From positions 1 through 39,424 of IMG/VR virus record IMGVR_UViG_3300020457_000025: a stretch of 39,424 nucleotides of DNA, one strand, 5' to 3'. Below are positions 3,250 through 14,899 of the stretch, one piece after another (within the stretch, counting starts at the first letter, position 1; the number at the start of each line of letters is the position of its first letter). A model generated the notes under the pieces. It made no database searches. It was not told the origin of the DNA and was given only the letters and a program-made list of their open reading frames with translations. Source of the stretch: a virus. The translations under genes and the position numbers were made by a program.

Positions 3250-3624
3250 TCACAATTCGTTTATTGCCTCCTCAAATTGATTTTGTAAATATCCTCGCCT
3301 CTTTACTCCCCCTACACTCGCAAAATGTGGATTCAATAAAAAGTACACATCCCCACTCCTTTTTTCCCTAACTCTCACAACTAACAACTCCTTCTTTAAC
3401 CTTCCCAACGACATTACACATACAGAATCTTTGATATTCAATTTCTTCGCTAATGCCCTCGCAGTTAACCTCACTCTCCCCGTCCTCCAGTTCATTTCAC
3501 TAATTAACCCCACATATACAGCCATATCCCTTAACTCCAATCTCCTCTCACTTATTAACCCAAATACATTCTCAAACTCTTCCTGATGAAGCATAACAAA
3601 ATTCTCGAATCCATTAGACTGCAT
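3250..3624 (-). CDS. Winged-helix protein, RepL-like
   Basis: This 124-residue protein has the pattern of plasmid/phage RepL-type winged helices. A helical N-terminus (about 20-45) is followed by an HTH in RLTARALAKKLNIKDSVCVMSLGRL (about 53-77, split here by reading) and a wing that ends in VYFLLNPHFASVGG (about 93-106). The NP..ASVGG ending resembles RepL proteins, which start plasmid replication; related phage proteins may act as regulators. AAGGAGGT lies seven bases before the ATG at 3624, a strong ribosome site. It reads away from the 690-base control region, the classic position for a repressor or initiator acting on that region. Which of the two roles applies cannot be decided from sequence. 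Confidence 0.65.
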   Translation of the reverse strand: MQSNGFENFVMLHQEEFENVFGLISERRLELRDMAVYVGLISEMNWRTGRVRLTARALAKKLNIKDSVCVMSLGRLKKELLVVRVREKRSGDVYFLLNPHFASVGGVKRRGYLQNQFEEAINEL

Positions 3625-4228: not shown

Positions 4229-4244
4229 TTGCCATCGGTGGCAA
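4229..4244. promoter_or_regulatory. Palindrome TTGCCA-TCGG-TGGCAA
   Basis: A perfect 6-base inverted repeat with a 4-base spacer, the same geometry as the TGCA sites but a different core. It lies about 85 bases before the first rightward early gene and could be an operator or RNA hairpin. Confidence 0.4.
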
Positions 4245-4270
4245 TCAGTGATAATAATAAGAACACTGCA

Positions 4271-4284
4271 TTACACCAGTGCAG
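4271..4284. promoter_or_regulatory. TGCA-N4-TGCA inverted repeat (copy 2)
   Basis: TTACACCAGTGCAG has one mismatch in the left arm relative to the family. It lies 31 bases before the ATG of the antirestriction gene and heads the early operon. A near-identical but more degenerate copy is at 9211-9224. Confidence 0.45.
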
Positions 4285-4287
4285 AAC

Positions 4288-4300
4288 AACAACCACCAAC
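4288..4300 (+). repeat. AACAACCACCAAC repeat (copy 2)
   Basis: Thirteen of the 14 bases of the repeat found at 2974 and 7919. Here and at 7919 it is a CA-rich, probably unstructured leader just before a gene start that lacks a Shine-Dalgarno sequence. Confidence 0.5.
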
Positions 4301-4315
4301 AACTTATTAAGTCTT

Positions 4316-5257
4316 ATGGCTACTAAAGAACGAACAAAGAAGGCTACAAAGCCAACACCAGAGGAGAAACTCTGTGGGGAATTAATCGAACTAATGGAAA
4401 AGGGAAAGAATCCTTGGAGAAAAGAATGGGAAAGCAAGAATGATGGAAGACACCAAAACTTAATAACAGGAAACTTTTATCATGGTGGCAATGTGGCATT
4501 GCTTGAGATGTACGCAATGTGTAGGAACTATGATGAAGCTTTATGGTTAGGTGCTAAACAGGGAATTGATAAAGGGTTAACGATTAAGAAAGGAAGTAAA
4601 GCGGTTTATATAACCAGACCACAGTTGAACGCTAGGGAAGTGGAAGACAAGAATGGCAAGCCAAAGCTAGACAATAATGGTAATCCTGTTATTGCAGCCT
4701 GGACATCTTATAAGCCTTGCCCAGTGTTTCATGTTTCATGCTTCGAAGGTGAAGGGTTAGAAGAGATGAAGAAGAAAGCACTAGGAGAAGAACAAGCCAG
4801 GAATGAGGAACCAAAGCGCCTAGAAGATTGTGAAAACGCTGCCAAGGCATATCACAAGCAAGAGAAGCTTGAGACGCTTTGGATGGGCAGTAGGGCTTGT
4901 TATAAGCCAACTAGGGACCAGATAAACATGCCTGAGAGAAAGTTATTTGATAACAGTGAAGCCTTATACAGTACTTGGTTCCATGAAATGGTACACAGCA
5001 CCGGACATAGCAGTAGACTTAATAGATTAAAGTCTACAAGCTTTGGAAGTAGTGAATATGCCAAAGAAGAATTAGTTGCAGAGTTAGGCGCTTTTCTTAT
5101 TTGTCATAGGTTGCAAATTAGTTCCAATACAACTAACCACGCGGCTTATCTTCAGTCTTGGATTAGCTCACTTAAGCAAGACCCTAAATATCTCTTTAAA
5201 GCGCTAGGAAAGGCAACAAGCGCAGTAAATAGAATCTTAGGAAGTGAGGTTAAGTAA
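4316..5257 (+). CDS. ArdC-type antirestriction protein with zincin domain
   Basis: The 313-residue protein combines an N-terminal ArdC-type ssDNA-binding domain (about 15-150; it contains NPWRKEWESKN and a GNFYHGGN-like segment) with a C-terminal zincin-like metallopeptidase domain. The zinc motif HEMVHSTGH is intact at 223-231, followed by the helix EELVAELGAFL that supplies the usual acidic ligand. ArdC proteins from plasmids protect incoming DNA from host restriction. As the first gene of the early operon it would act just after entry. I chose the ATG at 4316 because the 29 upstream codons from 4229 cover a palindrome and a regulatory motif. The substrate, if it is a protease, is unknown. 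Confidence 0.85.
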   Translation: MATKERTKKATKPTPEEKLCGELIELMEKGKNPWRKEWESKNDGRHQNLITGNFYHGGNVALLEMYAMCRNYDEALWLGAKQGIDKGLTIKKGSKAVYITRPQLNAREVEDKNGKPKLDNNGNPVIAAWTSYKPCPVFHVSCFEGEGLEEMKKKALGEEQARNEEPKRLEDCENAAKAYHKQEKLETLWMGSRACYKPTRDQINMPERKLFDNSEALYSTWFHEMVHSTGHSSRLNRLKSTSFGSSEYAKEELVAELGAFLICHRLQISSNTTNHAAYLQSWISSLKQDPKYLFKALGKATSAVNRILGSEVK

Positions 5258-5458
5258 ATGAAAAAATTATTTAAAGATATCAAGATCGGGGAAAGCTTTA
5301 CTTATGAGCTTTTCCCTAATCAATATGTAGCTGCTTACAAAGTATCTACTAGGACTGCTGATATGCATTTAGGGGATAAAGTATGGCAAAAAACCTACAT
5401 AGGATATAGAGAAGAATTAAATACAGGTGCAGTTGTATTTGATAGTGAGGAATTATAA
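5258..5458 (+). CDS. Small phage protein, unknown function
   Basis: A 66-residue protein begins on the base after the ArdC stop, with GAGG about 11 bases upstream. The opening KLFKDIKIGESFTY and the alternating hydrophobic pattern suggest a small beta-barrel-like fold often seen in short phage early proteins. No function is recognised; its position suggests coordinated early expression with the antirestriction gene. Confidence 0.7.
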   Translation: MKKLFKDIKIGESFTYELFPNQYVAAYKVSTRTADMHLGDKVWQKTYIGYREELNTGAVVFDSEEL

Positions 5459-5460
5459 AA

Positions 5461-5721
5461 ATGAATAAAACTAATACATATAAAGAACGCTTTAACTCAG
5501 CCTTAAAAAGGGCTGAGAAGGCGTGGTCAACGCTAGGAGATAAAGCCGATGATGATCTTATTTGTACTTATAACGATCTAGAAAGAGCCAAAGAAAATGA
5601 TTATAAGACACAAATTAGAAAGCTAACTTTAATGGATGAACAAATAGATTTTTATAAACAGATTGTAAAAGATAGAGAACAAGAAAAGAAGGCATATTTA
5701 GAAAGATACGAAGTTAATTAA
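5461..5721 (+). CDS. Small helical protein, unknown function
   Basis: The protein has 86 residues, is rich in Lys, Glu and Asp, and is predicted by its heptad-like pattern to be helical or coiled-coil. It starts two bases after the preceding stop with GAGGA upstream. The reading frame continues past its TAA for 79 more sense codons (5722-5958), so readthrough or a split gene is possible. Confidence 0.65.
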   Translation: MNKTNTYKERFNSALKRAEKAWSTLGDKADDDLICTYNDLERAKENDYKTQIRKLTLMDEQIDFYKQIVKDREQEKKAYLERYEVN

Positions 5722-5802
5722 TCTATCCTTGAAGCCTTCTTAAATAGTGGGCTTCATGGATGGCTTAAATGTCATCTATTCAACAACTACCAACCGTTTA
5801 AA

Positions 5803-5961
5803 ATGCCTAATGAATTGAATAAAAAGGGTGAATACTACCAAGGGTATTTAATGCCTGAAAAGTTTTCAAGATGGCTTGATTCTTGCCCTCTAAATTGGCA
5901 AATGGTCAGTATTGAAAAGGATAGAGGAACTTATATGTTTTTTGTTGAAGATAGCGAATAA
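5803..5961 (+). CDS. Short protein in frame behind the previous stop
   Basis: From the first ATG (5803) the frame encodes 52 residues (MPNELNKKGEYYQGYLMPEK at the start, three Trp/Cys-rich turns after). The frame is open back to 5722, directly after the TAA of the upstream gene and in the same frame. The 27 upstream codons look protein-like (Trp, Phe, Leu-rich) but contain no ATG, GTG or TTG. Possible readings are an unusual start such as ATC at 5725, readthrough of the TAA, or a gene whose 5' part was damaged. No family is recognised. Confidence 0.45.
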   Translation: MPNELNKKGEYYQGYLMPEKFSRWLDSCPLNWQMVSIEKDRGTYMFFVEDSE

Positions 5962-6126
5962 ATGGTACATCATCCAATACAAAATGTTTATTATCCAGTT
6001 AGAACTAATTGGATTAATAAAATAAATAAAACTACTAAAGAAAAGATTTATCTAGCTCAAAAGAGAATAGATGAACTAACTAAACTTATTAATTTTTGGA
6101 GAACAAATTCTCATGGCAAATCTTGA
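5962..6126 (+). CDS. Small protein, unknown function
   Basis: A 54-residue frame begins on the base after the preceding stop and overlaps the next gene by 14 bases. The N-terminus (MVHHPIQNVYYPVRTNW) is aromatic; the rest is a Lys-rich helix (about 22-46). The tight packing supports it being a real gene. No function is recognised. Confidence 0.55.
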   Translation: MVHHPIQNVYYPVRTNWINKINKTTKEKIYLAQKRIDELTKLINFWRTNSHGKS

Positions 6127-6361
6127 TCAAATGCTTGATAAAAAAACAGGCATCCTTGAAATGAATTTAAGTGAATTAAGCTTCCTTAAATATTATTGTG
6201 ATCTAGTCAGTAAAAACTACGGCTTAAAGGAACTAAAGGAAACTAATGAGCATGGATACAACGCAGTCAAGAAAGTAAACAAGTTATATAAAAAGATGGA
6301 AAGTGATCAGCGAAAGATGATTGATACAGTTCAAAAGTTACAGGAGGTTTGTAATGGATAA
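6113..6361 (+). CDS. Small helical protein, unknown function
   Basis: The protein has 82 residues and is almost entirely helical, with Leu/Lys-rich heptads in the C-terminal half that suggest a coiled coil. TTGGAGA lies upstream of the ATG. It overlaps both neighbours, as in a compact early operon. No family is recognised. Confidence 0.65.
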   Translation: MANLDQMLDKKTGILEMNLSELSFLKYYCDLVSKNYGLKELKETNEHGYNAVKKVNKLYKKMESDQRKMIDTVQKLQEVCNG

Positions 6362-7942: not shown

Positions 7943-8950
7943 ATGCTAGGAACTATCCGTAAAGCCCAGAAGGGCTATGTCGTTGATGTCACTATCAATG
8001 GCGCTAGAAGAAAAACAAGTTGCAAGACAAAACAAGACGCACTTGCAAAACAAAAAGAATTTAACGAGTTATTTAAAAAGAAAGCTCAAAGAAAATCACC
8101 AGTAAAACTGCATATAACTTTGATTGAGGCACAAAGGTTAGCGCAACAAACAGTATGGAAAGATCTTGCTTCACTTAAGACTTGTATTGGTGGAAGTAAT
8201 CAAATTATTAGATTCTTTGGTCCTGATTTTTTATTAAAGGATATTGACGCAACCCAGTGGAATGATTTTAGAGAAGATCAATTATCTGAGGACAGACAAC
8301 CTACAACAGTTAATAAGAAAACGACTTATTTAAAAGGGATGATTGGCGCTGCCATTACCTTTGGTCATTTAAAAGAATATCCAGTATTGCCACCAAACTT
8401 AAAAGATGTAAAAAGACCTAAGAGAGTATTTTCAGAAGAGGAAGAAGCTTTCTTTATTAAATACTGGACTCAGTGCGGTTATATACAGTTGGTTGATTTA
8501 TTCAAATGGTCATTAGATATGTGTACGAGGTGGGGAGAATCTCTAAGGGTAAAAGTTAAACATGTAAATTTAAAAACCAAAGAAGTCCTTATTCATAAGT
8601 CAAAGAATGGAGAACCTAGAACTGTTCCTATGACAGATAGAGCGTATCAAGCGATTAAGCCCTGGGTAGAGGGTAAAAGAAAGAATGATTATGTATGGAG
8701 AGATGAGATTACTTATCACATTTTAAGAAGATTAATCAAAGAAGTTAAAAGAGAAATGGATATGGAAGAGGACAAGCGATTGACTTGGCATTGCACCAGG
8801 CATACTTGTGCCACAAAATTGGCAAAGAAAGGTGTTCCTCTATTAGAAATAAAACAATTTGGAGGATGGAGAAGTATTGCAGCAGTGCAAGTTTATTTAC
8901 ATACAAATACTATGGCTTTAAGTCGTTGCGTTGAGGCTCTTGAAAGTTAA
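7943..8950 (+). CDS. int: Tyrosine recombinase, phage integrase
   Basis: This 335-residue tyrosine recombinase carries a full catalytic set: Arg196 (in CTRWGE), a Lys near 219 in the HKSKNGEPRTVPM hairpin, His283 and Arg286 (WHCTRH), Trp309 (GGWRS) in the place of the usual second His, and the nucleophile Tyr318 (VYLH). The N-terminal part holds the arm- and core-binding regions. It would catalyse site-specific integration and, with a directionality factor not seen here, excision. Its stop codon abuts the 3' end of a tRNA-Leu gene, the expected attachment site, and the RNA polymerase follows, as in cyanophage P-SSP7. The key residues give no sign of decay. Confidence 0.95.
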   Translation: MLGTIRKAQKGYVVDVTINGARRKTSCKTKQDALAKQKEFNELFKKKAQRKSPVKLHITLIEAQRLAQQTVWKDLASLKTCIGGSNQIIRFFGPDFLLKDIDATQWNDFREDQLSEDRQPTTVNKKTTYLKGMIGAAITFGHLKEYPVLPPNLKDVKRPKRVFSEEEEAFFIKYWTQCGYIQLVDLFKWSLDMCTRWGESLRVKVKHVNLKTKEVLIHKSKNGEPRTVPMTDRAYQAIKPWVEGKRKNDYVWRDEITYHILRRLIKEVKREMDMEEDKRLTWHCTRHTCATKLAKKGVPLLEIKQFGGWRSIAAVQVYLHTNTMALSRCVEALES

Positions 8951-9036
8951 TACCAGCGACGAGACTTGAACTCGTACGATCATTGCTGATCTCAGGATTT
9001 TAAGTCCTGTGTGTCTACCAATTCCACCACGCTGGC
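8951..9036 (-). tRNA. tRNA-Leu (UAA), complete; probable attP
   Basis: The minus strand folds into a full class II tRNA of 86 bases. It has a 7-pair acceptor stem (one G-U), the D-arm segment GGTGGAATTGGTAGACAC, a 5-pair anticodon stem CAGGA/TCCTG around CTTAAAA (anticodon TAA), and a 5-pair variable arm GATCA/TGATC with a GCAA loop. The T arm is ACGAG/CTCGT around TTCAAGT, and the discriminator base is A. CCA is not encoded and there is no intron. It lies flush against the integrase stop, so it is likely the attachment site. It may also work as a tRNA, since Leu TTA codons are very common in this genome. Confidence 0.93.
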
Positions 9037-9107
9037 AAGTGGTTTTTACAATCCTATAACCCTAGGTGAAACTTGCCCACAATCATGCGTCTACCAAGAC
9101 CAAATTT

Positions 9108-9135: not shown

Positions 9136-9210
9136 CAAAATAACGAAAGCCCTTCAGTACCAGTCAGTGTTCTCGATGAAACCACCAGACTTAAAATCCG
9201 ATGGAGACCA

Positions 9211-9288: not shown

Positions 9289-11706
9289 GTGGAAAAGGAG
9301 GTAAAAAAGGAGGAATACGACGCAAATTTTCCATCCACCGAAACCATTTCGCTACAGAAAAAGCGTGAGATTAGAGAGAAAGAAAATGCTAAATGGAAAG
9401 CAATTAATGACCGAGCAAAATTAAAAGCTCAGGGCAATGAAAGTGTTACTGAGTATGGAAGAGTTTTATTTAATGAGAACGCTGAAAAGATATCAATTGG
9501 ATTAGGAATATTATTAGAAGATCTTCTAGAAAATCCACATAAACCTGGGCCACATTTTGCTGCATGGCCTTTGCTTTTACATGTAACAAATAGAGGACCA
9601 AGAACTATATCTTCAATTGCTTTAAGTGTGGTACTAGACACTATTAGCGCTAGACCTTATGAAAAGGATTTAGCTAAAGGGATAGGCCGAGCACTAGAGG
9701 ATGAGTTAAGGGCAGGGAAAGTTGAGAAGATGAACCCTCACTTGATGCGTTTAATCAAGAAGAAGAAGGGGCCAAAAGCTTTAAGTAACAAAAGAATATT
9801 GCAGCAGCTACGGATTGAGGATGAAAGTTGGACTGCAATTCAAAAGCAAGAGGTCGGAGGATTATTACTTCAGGTCATTGTTACTCATACAAATTTGATT
9901 GAGATTTTGCCTTTAAGTAACAAGGGAAAGATCAAAACGATTGTTGATGCAACAGAAGCAACGCAGGAAATTATTAAAAGGAACCCACCAAGACCAACAC
10001 CAATAAGAAGGCTGCCTTTATTAATTAAGCCTAAGCCTTGTTGGACAATGTATAGGAAAGGAGAGAACAAACCATTTATTAGATCAAGAAATGATATTGA
10101 TTACATAACTGAGAAAGATTTAAGGGTAATCAAAAAGCCAGTCCATCACTTAGAGGGACAAGCACTAGCAATCGACAAAAGGATGGTGGATGATATGAGA
10201 ACTGCGTGGGACTGCAATATTCGTGGGTTATTTCCAGTCCAACGTGACCCCAAAGAAGAGCCTGTACCACCAACAGAACATATAGGATCAAAAGCATATA
10301 AAAATTATGTAAAAGAGAGATGGGCAGCACAAAAAGACCGCAACAATGGTGCAGGAATTAGAAATAAAATTGAACAGGACATAAGGGAATTAGAAGAGGT
10401 CGCAGGACGTATTGTTTACAACCAATATTTCGCAGATCAAAGGGGAAGAGTCTACACATTGAATAAACTTGCAACACATCAAGGACCAGACTGGTCTAAG
10501 GCTTGTATTGATTTTGCTAAAGGTAAACGCTGTAGTGAAGAGGGTTTTTCATGGTTATTAATAGCAGCAGCAGGACATTATGGAATCAATGATCTATGGC
10601 TAGAACGACATAAGTGGGGAGAAGATCATATCAAACAGATGTGTGCGGTAGCTGAAGCGCCGTTTGACCGTCTTGAGTTATGGAGAGATGCAAAAGATAA
10701 GTGGCAATATCTACAGCTATGCAGGGCTGTTAAAAAACAGATAGATAATCCCAATAGTATTTCTAGATGTCCAATCAGATTAGATCAATGTTGCAGTGGT
10801 GTCGCAATCTCAAGCATGTTGACTGGAGATTACAAATTAGCGTCATGGACAAATTGCGTTGGTGACAGAAAGAGCGATCTATATCAAGTCGTTGCTGATC
10901 ATGTTCACTTGGAAGTTACTAAAGATCTACAAAGCAATCCAACAAAAAAGAAATTTGCAGAACTTTGGCTTGAATATGGGATAGATAGATCGTTAATGAA
11001 ACTCCCCTGTATGACTGCAATATATGGGGCGCAATACTTAGGACTTGTTGATTATTTAGTTGCAAGATTAGAAGAGAAAGCCCCAGATAAAATGGTTTAT
11101 GATTGGCAACATCATTACCTTGGTCCAGCCTGTTACTTAGCAAAGATAATTAAATCTTCATTGGATTATTATTTGAACTCAAGCTTCAAATTGCAGGAAT
11201 GGTTGAAGCTAGTTGCAAAAAAAGTCTTAGAACAGAATAAAAAAATTAGATGGACTTCACCAGTTGGCTGGCCTATTGAATTAGGTGATGAAATCGACCC
11301 AAGGAAGAGCGTTTACTCGTTAACAAGAGGAAAAAGAAGATGGACACCTTGGAACGAATATGAAAATAAAGATCTTTTTTCTGCTCGGATTACCAAGCGC
11401 TCAATTATGGCTAACACCATCACTAGCTTTGATGCTGCAATATGTCTCCAAGTCATCTCCACATGTAGTGCAAAAAACGTGCAAATCCTTACAAACCATG
11501 ACTGTTTCGCAACAATTCCAACCGATGCTGAGTACTTACATCAGTTACTTTTGAAGCAACTTGGAACAACATTTAAACAGAAATGGTTAAAGAAAATAAG
11601 GAGTGAAATCATTGCTAACACTGGTATTGAGAGTATAGATGGGCCACCAAGAGCAGCTACATTCTGTTGCCTTAACCCTGGAGAAAATTCATACGCTTAT
11701 TCTTAG
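9289..11706 (+). CDS. T7-like single-subunit RNA polymerase
   Basis: The 805-residue enzyme (T7: 883) transcribes the phage genome from phage-specific promoters. Catalytic residues are in place: Asp499 in LDQCCSG (T7 Asp537), Arg567/Lys571/Tyr579 in RSLMKLPCMTAIYG with exactly the T7 spacing (Arg627/Lys631/Tyr639), and Asp738 in NHDCFATIP (T7 Asp812). The C-terminus ends in SYAYS, resembling the aromatic T7 foot. The start is a GTG directly after an in-frame TAA. AAGGAGG falls inside the first codons, so a slightly later start cannot be excluded. It lies after the integrase and tRNA and before the SSB, as in other marine T7-like phages. Confidence 0.95.
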   Translation: MEKEVKKEEYDANFPSTETISLQKKREIREKENAKWKAINDRAKLKAQGNESVTEYGRVLFNENAEKISIGLGILLEDLLENPHKPGPHFAAWPLLLHVTNRGPRTISSIALSVVLDTISARPYEKDLAKGIGRALEDELRAGKVEKMNPHLMRLIKKKKGPKALSNKRILQQLRIEDESWTAIQKQEVGGLLLQVIVTHTNLIEILPLSNKGKIKTIVDATEATQEIIKRNPPRPTPIRRLPLLIKPKPCWTMYRKGENKPFIRSRNDIDYITEKDLRVIKKPVHHLEGQALAIDKRMVDDMRTAWDCNIRGLFPVQRDPKEEPVPPTEHIGSKAYKNYVKERWAAQKDRNNGAGIRNKIEQDIRELEEVAGRIVYNQYFADQRGRVYTLNKLATHQGPDWSKACIDFAKGKRCSEEGFSWLLIAAAGHYGINDLWLERHKWGEDHIKQMCAVAEAPFDRLELWRDAKDKWQYLQLCRAVKKQIDNPNSISRCPIRLDQCCSGVAISSMLTGDYKLASWTNCVGDRKSDLYQVVADHVHLEVTKDLQSNPTKKKFAELWLEYGIDRSLMKLPCMTAIYGAQYLGLVDYLVARLEEKAPDKMVYDWQHHYLGPACYLAKIIKSSLDYYLNSSFKLQEWLKLVAKKVLEQNKKIRWTSPVGWPIELGDEIDPRKSVYSLTRGKRRWTPWNEYENKDLFSARITKRSIMANTITSFDAAICLQVISTCSAKNVQILTNHDCFATIPTDAEYLHQLLLKQLGTTFKQKWLKKIRSEIIANTGIESIDGPPRAATFCCLNPGENSYAYS

Positions 11707-11766: not shown

Positions 11767-12390
11767 ATGCCACAATCTTTGGTTACTCCAAAAGGAGAAT
11801 CAGTCTTCGCTTGTGTTTTAGGTCTTCCAAGATTAAACAAATACAGCAATGAAAATGAATGGACTATGGGGATGCGCTGGAAGCCAGAAGATTGCGAATA
11901 TTTAAGAACCAAAATTGATGAAGAATTTACAGAAGCTCATGGCAAAAAGAAAGGTAGGTTGCCTTACGACTTTGAAGCCTATGAAAATGAAAATGGAGAT
12001 AAAATTGAAACTGGTTATATAAAATTCAAATTCAAAAGAAAGGAAAAAAGCAACAAAGGTGAATTATTAGGCGCACCGAAAGTAGTTGACGCAAACCTAA
12101 GACCTTGGGATCAAGGAAAGCTTATTGGAAATGGAAGTATCGTCAAAGTTTCCTTTTCTATTTTCCCTTATAACAAAGGTGGATTAGGTGTTTCATTATT
12201 TTTAAAAGGTGTTCAGGTTCTTAAGCACGTTGAATACGATCCTGATGCAGATGCCTTTAGCGTTGACCCAGAATTTGCTGATGACGTAACAGATTTTGAA
12301 GCAGTAGGTACACCGTCTTCATTGAATGTTGACTCTTCCAATGTTCAGGAACAACTCAACAAAGTTAATCAAGAGGACATTCCATTTTGA
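11767..12390 (+). CDS. Single-stranded DNA-binding protein (T7 gp2.5-like)
   Basis: The 207-residue protein has the length and position of T7 gp2.5 (232). A beta-rich OB-fold core covers about residues 10-155, with LGLPRLNKYSNEN near the start, and an acidic linker follows (about 155-185). The last seven residues are NQEDIPF. T7 gp2.5 also ends in an acidic tail with a terminal Phe, but the DIPF ending matches bacterial SSB, where it docks host replication and repair proteins. It would coat ssDNA in replication and recombination. Its stop overlaps the TTG start of the resolvase gene. Confidence 0.85.
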   Translation: MPQSLVTPKGESVFACVLGLPRLNKYSNENEWTMGMRWKPEDCEYLRTKIDEEFTEAHGKKKGRLPYDFEAYENENGDKIETGYIKFKFKRKEKSNKGELLGAPKVVDANLRPWDQGKLIGNGSIVKVSFSIFPYNKGGLGVSLFLKGVQVLKHVEYDPDADAFSVDPEFADDVTDFEAVGTPSSLNVDSSNVQEQLNKVNQEDIPF

Positions 12391-12761
12391 TTAAAGATAG
12401 TGTCGCAGAATTTACTTTTTATGTTCCTTTAAAGAGTAAAGAAAGACCTCGCTTTGGCGTGAAAAAAGGTAAGCCTATGCCTCCATATATGTCCAAAGAA
12501 TATAAACAATGGCAGGCAGATTTAAAAGCACAAATGAGGGAGTGGTGGACTGCACCTCCCTTAGAAAGGGTTAAACAAGTTACCCTCCATTTCGGTGGCC
12601 CCGCAAGGCATGACGGCGATAACTTATGTGGCGCTGTTTTAGATGCTGGCAAAGGGATTATTTGGTCTGATGACCGAGTAAGCATCATGCCTCATGGCGT
12701 TTGGATATGGAGTAAAACTAAACCTAAAGACTCGTACATTCATTTACAGGTTACTTACTAA
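12387..12761 (+). CDS. RusA-type Holliday junction resolvase
   Basis: The 124-residue protein shows the RusA pattern: PLKSKERPRFG near the N-terminus, a Tyr/Trp-containing middle, then RHDGDNLCGAVLDAG (about 71-85) and IIWSDDRVS (about 87-95). These supply the acidic catalytic residues Asp-x-Asp-Asn, a second Asp and the final Asp pair. RusA dimers cut four-way junctions. Here the enzyme takes the place of T7 endonuclease I (gp3) and would resolve branched or concatemeric DNA before packaging. It starts with TTG overlapping the ssb stop (TTGA). Confidence 0.85.
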   Translation: MIKDSVAEFTFYVPLKSKERPRFGVKKGKPMPPYMSKEYKQWQADLKAQMREWWTAPPLERVKQVTLHFGGPARHDGDNLCGAVLDAGKGIIWSDDRVSIMPHGVWIWSKTKPKDSYIHLQVTY

Positions 12762-13327
12762 TGCAATGCCCAAAATGTAAAAAAACAAATACCAAAGTAA
12801 TGGAAACTCGTAAACACGCAGAGTGTGATATGAGGGTCAGGATGTGCTTGGACTGTAGTTTTAAATTCTCAACGCTGGAACGTGTTTGCGTATCTGTTGG
12901 TGAGCCTTTCGGAGTCTGTGAAGTAAGCCCAATTCAACCAAACAAGGTTAAAAGAGCAAGAGTCGCAGCACTTCCTTCAGGTGAAAAATATGTAGCCAAG
13001 GAGGACGCTGAAGTTTTAGATGGCATCTCTATAGATGTTCGACCATTGATCTGTAAATGGTGGAATGAAAGCAGATGGCTTAAGCAAAAGAGTAAAGCTG
13101 TTTGGTCAAGAGATGCTTTTACTTTGAGTGTTCAACGATTATATGGATTGCCTTCTTACTTACAAGAGGAATTAGCGAAGGCTGGCATTGAGCATGGGTG
13201 GCAAGCTTTAAAACTTAGCTACTTAAATCATGCACCAGAGCCAACACCTAACCCAGGAGGAGGCTTAGCTCCTAAAGATCCAGCCATGAATGAGGCAGTA
13301 AGGGAATGGCAAAACAAAGCAAGTTAA
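12761..13327 (+). CDS. Zinc-ribbon protein, possible replication organiser
   Basis: The protein has 188 residues. The N-terminus is an NrdR-like zinc ribbon, with CPKCKKTNTKVMETR and CLDCSFKFSTLERV giving a CxxC...CxxC pair, but the NrdR ATP-cone is absent. The C-terminal half contains WWNESRWLKQKSKAVWSRDA and ELAKAGIEHGWQALKL (about 137-152). The latter resembles the gW.gL ending common in phage replisome-organiser proteins. It overlaps the resolvase gene by one base. I infer a role in loading host replication proteins because polymerase and primase-helicase are missing at this locus. A simple transcription regulator remains possible. Confidence 0.5.
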   Translation: MQCPKCKKTNTKVMETRKHAECDMRVRMCLDCSFKFSTLERVCVSVGEPFGVCEVSPIQPNKVKRARVAALPSGEKYVAKEDAEVLDGISIDVRPLICKWWNESRWLKQKSKAVWSRDAFTLSVQRLYGLPSYLQEELAKAGIEHGWQALKLSYLNHAPEPTPNPGGGLAPKDPAMNEAVREWQNKAS

Positions 13328-13752
13328 GCATCCAGACATTCTTAGCAGCGTCGGAAATGATAGCTGCACACTTAAGAATTAAAGAGGCTGATCGTTGGTC
13401 GGCTCAAATATCTCAACTAAAATTTGTCTCCTTTACTCAAGCCTACCCAGAAGTAAGTCAAGAACAATTTTTATGGGCTTCTGAGCAGTTTGTTCAGACA
13501 ACAACCAATAAAGATTTTCTGCGCTATCCCACTTGGGATGAGTTGATGACTTTTCTTTACAGACTTGAGAACGGAAAACCTAATAGAAGTTGGGGATTCA
13601 AAGAAACACTACCTCCCATGTGTCAACCTGTGCCAAATCAATTGGCCTTAATGCCACCTAAGCCAGTATCTAACTATGAACCACCCGACAAAGAGAACAA
13701 ACAAGCTTACAAAACTTTTAAGGCTAACCGAGCGCTCAAAGGAGGGAACTGA
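13306..13752 (+). CDS. Possible helicase-loader-like protein
   Basis: The 148-residue protein has a helical N-terminal domain: two helices, then FVSFTQAYPEVSQEQFLWASEQFV and KDFLRYPTWDELMTFLYRL (about 72-90). An FP/YPTw-E pattern after paired helices recalls small helicase loader proteins such as phage SPP1 gp39. The C-terminal third is Pro-rich and probably disordered, with a basic end. It overlaps its neighbours (22 bases upstream, 1 downstream), so it is cotranscribed with the zinc-ribbon gene. The similarity is my reading of the pattern and needs a profile search. Confidence 0.4.
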   Translation: MAKQSKLSIQTFLAASEMIAAHLRIKEADRWSAQISQLKFVSFTQAYPEVSQEQFLWASEQFVQTTTNKDFLRYPTWDELMTFLYRLENGKPNRSWGFKETLPPMCQPVPNQLALMPPKPVSNYEPPDKENKQAYKTFKANRALKGGN

Positions 13753-13973
13753 TGGACAAGTTAATCGACGATTCCCAGTTAATAAAAATTTTAGAACGTG
13801 GGCTTCTCAGTGGGAAGTGGTCTATCGCTCAATTCAATAAGGGGAAAACGAATGGAAGAATACCAAGCGATAAATTTTTAGAAGAACATCCAGAATTTCA
13901 AGACTTTACTTTTAGAGATCTAAAAACATTTAATGAACAACATGGGAAAAACAATTCCAGCTACCTCTCGTGA
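13752..13973 (+). CDS. Small protein, unknown function
   Basis: A 73-residue protein with GGAGGG ahead of the ATG. It is mixed helical, with a basic patch (FNKGKTNGRIPSDKF, about 28-42) that could form an HTH-like turn. The start overlaps the previous stop by one base. No family is recognised. Confidence 0.6.
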   Translation: MDKLIDDSQLIKILERGLLSGKWSIAQFNKGKTNGRIPSDKFLEEHPEFQDFTFRDLKTFNEQHGKNNSSYLS

Positions 13974-14151
13974 TCCTTTCTTGGGTGATTACAAACATTA
14001 TCGTGTGCGATATAACTCACCTAAAATGAGATTTGGAAGTTGTGAAAAGATATACACTGCATTGAATCCAGCCGATGCAAAAAGAAAAGCAGTTGCCGAA
14101 CTTTCTAAAGATCATCCAAACGTAAGAGTTATGGTTGTAGGAGAAAGATGA
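13942..14151 (+). CDS. Small protein, unknown function
   Basis: A protein of 69 residues from the ATG at 13942, or 72 from the ATG at 13933. It overlaps the previous gene by about 30-40 bases in another frame. Alternating beta and helix elements (HYRVRYNSPKMRF; NPADAKRKAVAELSKDHPNV; VRVMVVGER) suggest a compact alpha/beta fold. The exonuclease follows after one base. Confidence 0.6.
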   Translation: MGKTIPATSRDPFLGDYKHYRVRYNSPKMRFGSCEKIYTALNPADAKRKAVAELSKDHPNVRVMVVGER

Positions 14152-14152
14152 T

Positions 14153-14899
14153 ATGAAAATGGCACTAATTGATGCAGAATTATTCTCTATTAAAGCTGCA
14201 TTTGCAACAGAAAATTATACATTATGGGATCCAGAAAATCACCCTGATACATGGCATTACACCATTGATTATCAAGAGGCATTAGCTAATTTTACTGATC
14301 AGTTACATACAATTAATGAATTACTACCTGATTACGGATTAGTTCTTTGTTGGGGAAAAGGTAAGAGCTTTCGTTATGACGTTTGGGATACCTACAAAAG
14401 TGATAGGAAAAAGAAATTAAGATCAATTCCAGCAGGCTACGCAGAGTTTAAAAAGAAACTGCAAGATAAATTTCCTTCTGCTGCTTTAGAGGGAATTGAA
14501 GGTGATGATGTGATGGGTGTTTTGTATTGTGAAAATGATGTGATTGTTTCTGAAGATAAGGACATGTTGACTATCCCTGGTCTGCATCTCAGAGGTGGAG
14601 AATTAATAGAAGTAACAAAATATTCAGCCGATCATGCTTTCTTTACACAAGTCTTATCAGGAGATGCAACAGATTCTTATCCAGGCTTAAAAAAATGTGG
14701 AAAGGTTGGTGCTAGTAAAATTCTTGCTAAGTGTAAGAATGAAAATGATATGTGGCACAGCGTTTTAGCTGCTTATGAGAAGGCAGGATTTGATGAAAGA
14801 TTTGCTTTAAGTCAAGCAAGATGCGCTCGAATATTAAGGCAAGGAGAATACAACTTAAAAACTAATACTCCCCTAATTTGGAATCCACCGATAAACTGA
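14153..14899 (+). CDS. 5'-3' exonuclease, FEN type (T7 gp6-like)
   Basis: The 248-residue nuclease shows the FEN/PIN metal sites in order: LIDAE (about 5-9), YKSDRKKK (about 82-89), EGIEGDDVMG (about 114-123), SEDKDML (about 134-140) and GDATDSYPGL followed by GKVGASKIL (about 173-195), the last a helix-hairpin-helix DNA contact. T7 gp6 has about 300 residues and degrades host DNA, removes RNA primers and helps make concatemers. In T7-like phages it follows the DNA polymerase; here it follows four genes of other kinds. Confidence 0.9.
   Translation: MKMALIDAELFSIKAAFATENYTLWDPENHPDTWHYTIDYQEALANFTDQLHTINELLPDYGLVLCWGKGKSFRYDVWDTYKSDRKKKLRSIPAGYAEFKKKLQDKFPSAALEGIEGDDVMGVLYCENDVIVSEDKDMLTIPGLHLRGGELIEVTKYSADHAFFTQVLSGDATDSYPGLKKCGKVGASKILAKCKNENDMWHSVLAAYEKAGFDERFALSQARCARILRQGEYNLKTNTPLIWNPPIN

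Follow-up and report, generated by a model that had tools for sequence, protein, structure and literature searches.

What copies the DNA of a T7-like phage that encodes neither a DNA polymerase nor a primase-helicase, and what stands in the place of these genes? The question is raised by IMG/VR virus record IMGVR_UViG_3300020457_000025, a stretch of 39,424 bp with both ends cut (the window), and in particular by its plus-strand replication genes. The T7 replisome is the textbook case of a self-contained four-protein machine. In the window, a T7-type single-subunit RNA polymerase (RNAP; 9289..11706; PF00940, E 6e-49; PHROG 414, E 1e-108) is followed by a gp2.5-type single-stranded DNA-binding protein (SSB; 11767..12390; PHROG 112, E 7e-18), a RusA Holliday-junction resolvase (12387..12761; PF05866, E 5e-9) and, at the gp6 position, a 5'-3' exonuclease without a polymerase domain (14153..14899; PF02739, E 2.5e-11; PHROG 107, E 8e-46; no DNA_pol_A match). 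A preliminary description of the window had reported SSB, RusA and exonuclease in T7 order with four small open reading frames (ORFs) where the replication enzymes would be expected, and both points were upheld: coordinates and order were correct on re-check, and the four ORFs, encoding proteins of 188, 148, 73 and 69-72 amino acids (aa), matched no polymerase, primase or helicase in Pfam or PHROGs. Our answer is that this T7-like phage, having no replicase, primase or helicase of its own, probably replicates via host DnaB, DnaG and DNA polymerase III, through biochemical steps for which we propose a scheme.

Both enzymes are missing across a whole lineage. Six-frame searches with DNA_pol_A found nothing in the window or in the 29 related records, and a DNA_pol_B search found nothing in 24 related records; DnaB_C matched 2 of the 29 related records, exactly the gp4-bearing S31-C1 (AP013547) and S37-C6 (AP013546), and Toprim_2 matched 3 of 24, all gp4-bearing, and nothing in the window. 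The DnaB_C and Toprim_2 matches in gp4 carriers provide a built-in positive control for these absence searches. A polymerase or primase-helicase in the part of the genome outside the window was also ruled out. A close relative of 41,954 bp (G002), ~81-90% identical along its length, reaches past the window's start and carries there tail-fibre and small unknown genes; the deposited genomes of S-SRP02 (MW822601) and S38-C3 (AP013548) are both entered as complete, the former as circular. Since these three genomes cover the missing ends, the absence is not due to the cut window. No DNA polymerase or primase-helicase was encoded by any of 27 relatives of near-full length, one of them the complete isolate Synechococcus phage S-SRP02. 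The "DNA polymerase I" of S-SRP02 (MW822601, 22389-23129) is the exonuclease alone, there being no DNA_pol_A match in the record. A "DNA polymerase" gene was included in the concatenated tree of the S-SRP02 paper, which leaves primase/helicase unmentioned and does not discuss the lack of both enzymes (PMC8790148). A ~245-aa 5'-3' exonuclease of S37-C6 (AP013546, 20750-21481) is likewise labelled DNA polymerase I.

Could a highly diverged replicase or helicase hide in some unknown protein of the lineage? Several proteins are indeed without a family match (e.g., those of 1063 and 1094 aa), and the authors describing MPP-C, a cyanophage group without DNA polymerase, were unable to exclude the same for their phages (PMC9860041). 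Yet the DNA_pol_A, DNA_pol_B, DnaB_C and Toprim profiles, which found nothing here, did detect the gp4 relatives; the large unknowns are located within the virion block and have matches among the S-SRP02 genes of that block (the large ORFs of the window sit among tail and internal-virion genes, the last one being a T7-type tail fibre); and the proteins in the slot are small, with neither a polymerase nor a P-loop fold in the modelled structures of the 188- and 148-aa proteins. We consider a hidden enzyme of this kind highly improbable. Large ORFs in the wider slots of some relatives were also considered as hidden replicases, and those listed looked like accessory genes or out-of-frame ORFs.

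The phage is a T7-like member of an S-SRP02-like lineage whose hosts are, at least in part, cyanobacteria. Among the hallmarks of T7-like phages (Autographiviridae), the single-subunit RNAP and the T7-type virion and packaging genes are present, while gp4 primase-helicase and gp5 polymerase are found neither in the window nor in its relatives with the same slot genes. RNAP and TerL group with those of S-SRP02. The slot of S-SRP02 and S38-C3 is shared with the window and holds homologues of the 188-, 148- and 73-aa proteins; both genomes, like the window, have no polymerase or gp4 and carry an integrase, RNAP and T7-like virion genes. TerL identity of the window is 78% to S-SRP02, 62% to S38-C3 and 41% to MPP-C (P-SCSP1u). 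S-SRP02 differs from the window in a weakly clamp-like gene (10903-11607) in place of ArdC and in an additional KilA-N gene. The clamp-like gene, absent from the window, codes for 234 aa, is annotated as DNA polymerase III beta and has a weak clamp match; a sliding clamp was rejected as a core part, as the gene occurred in 5 of 31 records and had no PDB match. The preliminary description had cited MPP-C as a possible precedent. MPP-C phages are indeed T7-like marine cyanophages reported to lack DNA polymerase, but primase/helicase is among their nine core genes (PMC9860041), lying at 4724-6343 in P-SCSP1u, and the window has none, which rules out membership in MPP-C. P-SCSP1u further differs in its smaller genome and in the protein at the SSB position, which ends FEEEF. 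Pelagibacter phage HTVC201P, a polymerase-bearing T7-like marine phage, resembles the window in the order of RNAP, SSB and endonuclease and in an early region with MarR and integrase genes, but its lineage has gp4 and DNA polymerase, and SSB tails of the TDF type.

What occupies the slot is a conserved cassette, swapped one-for-one against gp4. Homologues of the 188-aa (12761..13327) and 148-aa (13306..13752) proteins occurred on >100 viral contigs, with 95 distinct 148-aa proteins. In 118 of 119 complete slots the gene immediately preceding that for the 148-aa protein was the 188-aa gene, which encodes a zinc-ribbon protein; in the window the two genes share 22 bp. The 73-aa protein (13752..13973) is a conserved partner, present in 111 of the 119 cassette slots vs none of 15 complete gp4 slots; the ORF of 69-72 aa (13933..14151) was found in close relatives only (11 loci) and lies outside the core cassette. 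After 80 loci had been added by searching with gp4 as well, the 148-aa protein was counted at 152 loci, gp4 at 83, and both together at none; some of the loci counted share a contig. The zinc-ribbon protein itself varied with its neighbour: in 17 gp4 loci it was a bare ribbon of 63-121 aa, while beside the 148-aa gene it was mostly 157-279 aa, being longer there because of an added helical domain. Accordingly composed are S31-C1 and S37-C6, a sister clade likewise without DNA polymerase, which have a bare NrdR ribbon in the slot and, unlike the window, keep gp4 and have neither the 148-aa nor the 73-aa protein, nor the SSB tip described below. In the RNAP tree one change divides cassette and gp4 types, with the gp4 sisters forming one clade (support 100); the tree is consistent with a swap in either direction. 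In several gp4-bearing sisters (L172-L177), gp4 is split into two ORFs (~106-113 and 420 aa). Distant cassette phages (L137, L140, L143 and L146) have no RusA, and an ORF of 380-445 aa and unknown family lies between their SSB and zinc-ribbon genes (L137 8667-10001, L140 4983-6161, L143 8700-10001, L146 7169-8314); for two such ORFs (392-444 aa) there was no Pfam match above noise.

The 188-aa protein combines an NrdR-type zinc ribbon with a helical, weakly O-like C-terminal domain and is a candidate initiator. The ribbon (PF22811) was found in 56 of 57 members of the family, with an NrdR structure match at E 2e-9. NrdR repressors have the ribbon followed by an ATP-cone, and the 188-aa protein gave no ATP-cone match. 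In several family members the C-terminal domain weakly matched (E 0.003-0.19) the C-terminal part of PHROG 678 (described as "replication initiation O-like"); a tblastn search for relatives of this domain outside the lineage returned nothing convincing.

The 148-aa protein had no Pfam match and was modelled with confidence (pLDDT 90.6). Foldseek comparison of the model with the PDB gave four matches, one of which was the SPP1 helicase loader G39P (1NO1; TMt 0.55, E 6.7), and among the first 50 matches in BFVD two bore the name G39P, six were entered as "replisome organizer" and one as a putative helicase. The loader reading is drawn from the recurrence of one function among individually insignificant fold matches. 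Together with the exclusion of gp4, it makes the 148-aa protein a candidate G39P-like loader, which would bind host DnaB. The "loader-like" label of the preliminary description thus stood as far as the recurring G39P and replisome-organizer matches carry it, at scores below threshold. Loaders of other phages are known to capture bacterial helicases at one shared place, the LH-DH module of DnaB, which DnaC, lambda P and DciA use (PMC9912922).

The genes for the candidate initiator and the candidate loader lie side by side and overlap, as in lambda O/P and SPP1 G38P/G39P; the O-like C-terminal match and the G39P fold match that point to these systems are weak. The window differs from both in that a zinc ribbon replaces the winged-helix origin-binding domain and in that the genome is T7-like with its own RNAP. 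SPP1 supplies its own helicase; the phage in the window does not. At the sequence level no homology between the cassette and lambda P or O was detected, and membership of the cassette proteins in the lambda O/P or SPP1 G38P/G39P families is not established.

Cassette phages also carry a bacterial-type SSB tip, a pattern that is new here. The window SSB, of T7 gp2.5 type, ends EDIPF (12373..12387, +), resembling the docking tip of bacterial SSBs; these have DDDIPF-like ends on which DnaG and other proteins dock (PMC5872125), so that the phage tip may likewise dock host proteins. A C-terminal [DE][DE][IVLMA]P[FWY] was present in 75 of 88 distinct cassette-phage SSBs (several of the remaining 13 being near variants), vs 0.05 matches expected when the last 12 residues were shuffled, but was missing from all 16 SSBs of sisters with gp4 and from all 41 of the HTVC201P lineage, which has a polymerase. 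The pattern was set after the first tails had been inspected, and the 41 polymerase-lineage SSBs, obtained later, are the cleaner control; the Fisher values (3e-11 and 1e-22) overstate independence, the pattern being shared by descent. Two Cyanobium metagenome-assembled genomes that also hold cassette relatives have SSBs ending DEEVPF and EEEVPF. As the motif is kept while its residues vary, we argue for selection on the tip. One alternative is that tip and cassette mark the lineage independently of each other, with the tip making contacts for repair or recombination instead of replication: the two follow the same clade and are hence confounded, and the bacterial tip binds repair proteins too. 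But widely diverged members retain the motif even though its residues vary, and it is absent from the sisters that encode their own primase-helicase, and we regard coincidence of this kind as improbable.

The preliminary description had suggested a hand-over to the host replisome. This is still the best-supported reading, to which the strict cassette/gp4 exclusion and the SSB tip have been added, and its functional part is what we infer from them. With some reserve, we incline to a fuller version: that a widespread T7-like lineage gave up the T7 replisome entirely in exchange for a cassette of three genes recruiting the host helicase (a zinc-ribbon initiator with an O-like adaptor, a loader from a new family resembling G39P, and a small partner), its T7-type SSB having the bacterial tip, such that DnaG and DNA polymerase III would treat viral single strands as host ones. 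In the scheme that we propose, i) the zinc-ribbon protein, possibly with a 124-aa winged-helix protein, would bind the phage origin, perhaps opened by RNAP transcription; ii) its O-like C-terminal domain would recruit the 148-aa loader, which would bring and load host DnaB, with the 73-aa protein assisting, the initiator-loader pair acting like lambda O/P or SPP1 G38P/G39P; iii) phage SSB would coat the unwound strand and dock host DnaG, clamp loader or restart proteins through its EDIPF tip; iv) phage exonuclease and RusA would remove primers and resolve junctions.

Several observations weigh against the hand-over: i) the exclusion and SSB counts come from related genomes and not from independent events; ii) the fold matches outside the 148-aa family are all insignificant (E 0.9-8.6), with no background rate for comparison; iii) the O-like (PHROG 678) match is below threshold and was not found in the window's own 188-aa copy; iv) no match emerged when profiles were compared with single lambda P and O sequences; v) neither iterons nor DnaA boxes turned up, and of the iterated origin sites typical of lambda O no convincing case was seen in the three regions searched. 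That no origin was found would also fit a different scheme, in which the cassette, instead of starting replication, would take over the host or block it: DnaB would be sequestered by the 148-aa protein, and phage replication would start by recombination or R-loops, with exonuclease, SSB, RusA and host PriA using any free host replisome parts. The phage has retained exonuclease, SSB and RusA, and SPP1 G39P is labelled helicase loader/inhibitor in the structure library. However, one-for-one replacement of gp4 in the same slot suggests an essential, non-accessory role of the cassette in replication, and the O-like extension of the ribbon protein is present only alongside the loader; we therefore hold such a takeover to be unlikely. 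In the whole window the DnaA-box-like TTWTNCACA occurred once vs 5.7 times expected by shuffling, a mild depletion.

The winged-helix protein of the first step (3250..3624, -) has weak RepL and MarR matches, and an origin-binding or regulatory role is tentative. In a single-sequence search it was present in 21 of 21 cassette records vs 0 of 4 gp4-bearing ones, and in S37-C6 a different winged-helix-like protein is found at its position. It was also considered as TerS and ruled out, TerS lying at 833-1126 (PF11123).

If replication is handed over to the host as we propose, a common T7-like lineage that has kept its RNAP and has none of the replication enzymes is a natural experiment on the passage from autonomous to host-borrowed replication, for which mimicry of the bacterial SSB tip supplies a concrete docking hypothesis. 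Tests are possible with the isolate S-SRP02 on Synechococcus SR-C1, which with the cassette gene set grows lytically with a burst of ~50 (PMC8790148). The cassette reading also proposes a function for S-SRP02 ORF29, named among the most recruited hypothetical genes (PMC8790148), and surveys using polymerase or primase-helicase as marker genes overlook cassette phages.

Elsewhere in the window, the exonuclease is followed downstream by genes for portal, scaffold, capsid, tail tubular proteins A and B and the T7-type tail fibre, and TerL is encoded on the minus strand. The early region is headed by an ArdC-type antirestriction protein (4229-5257; ArdcN plus a zincin-like metallopeptidase), where S-SRP02 has another gene. 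A complete tRNA-Leu(TAA) gene (8950-9037, -) comes directly after the integrase, and part of its anticodon arm (17 nt) recurs in inverted orientation ~170 bp away at 9183-9199; tRNA gene and inverted copy together are possibly an attachment site.

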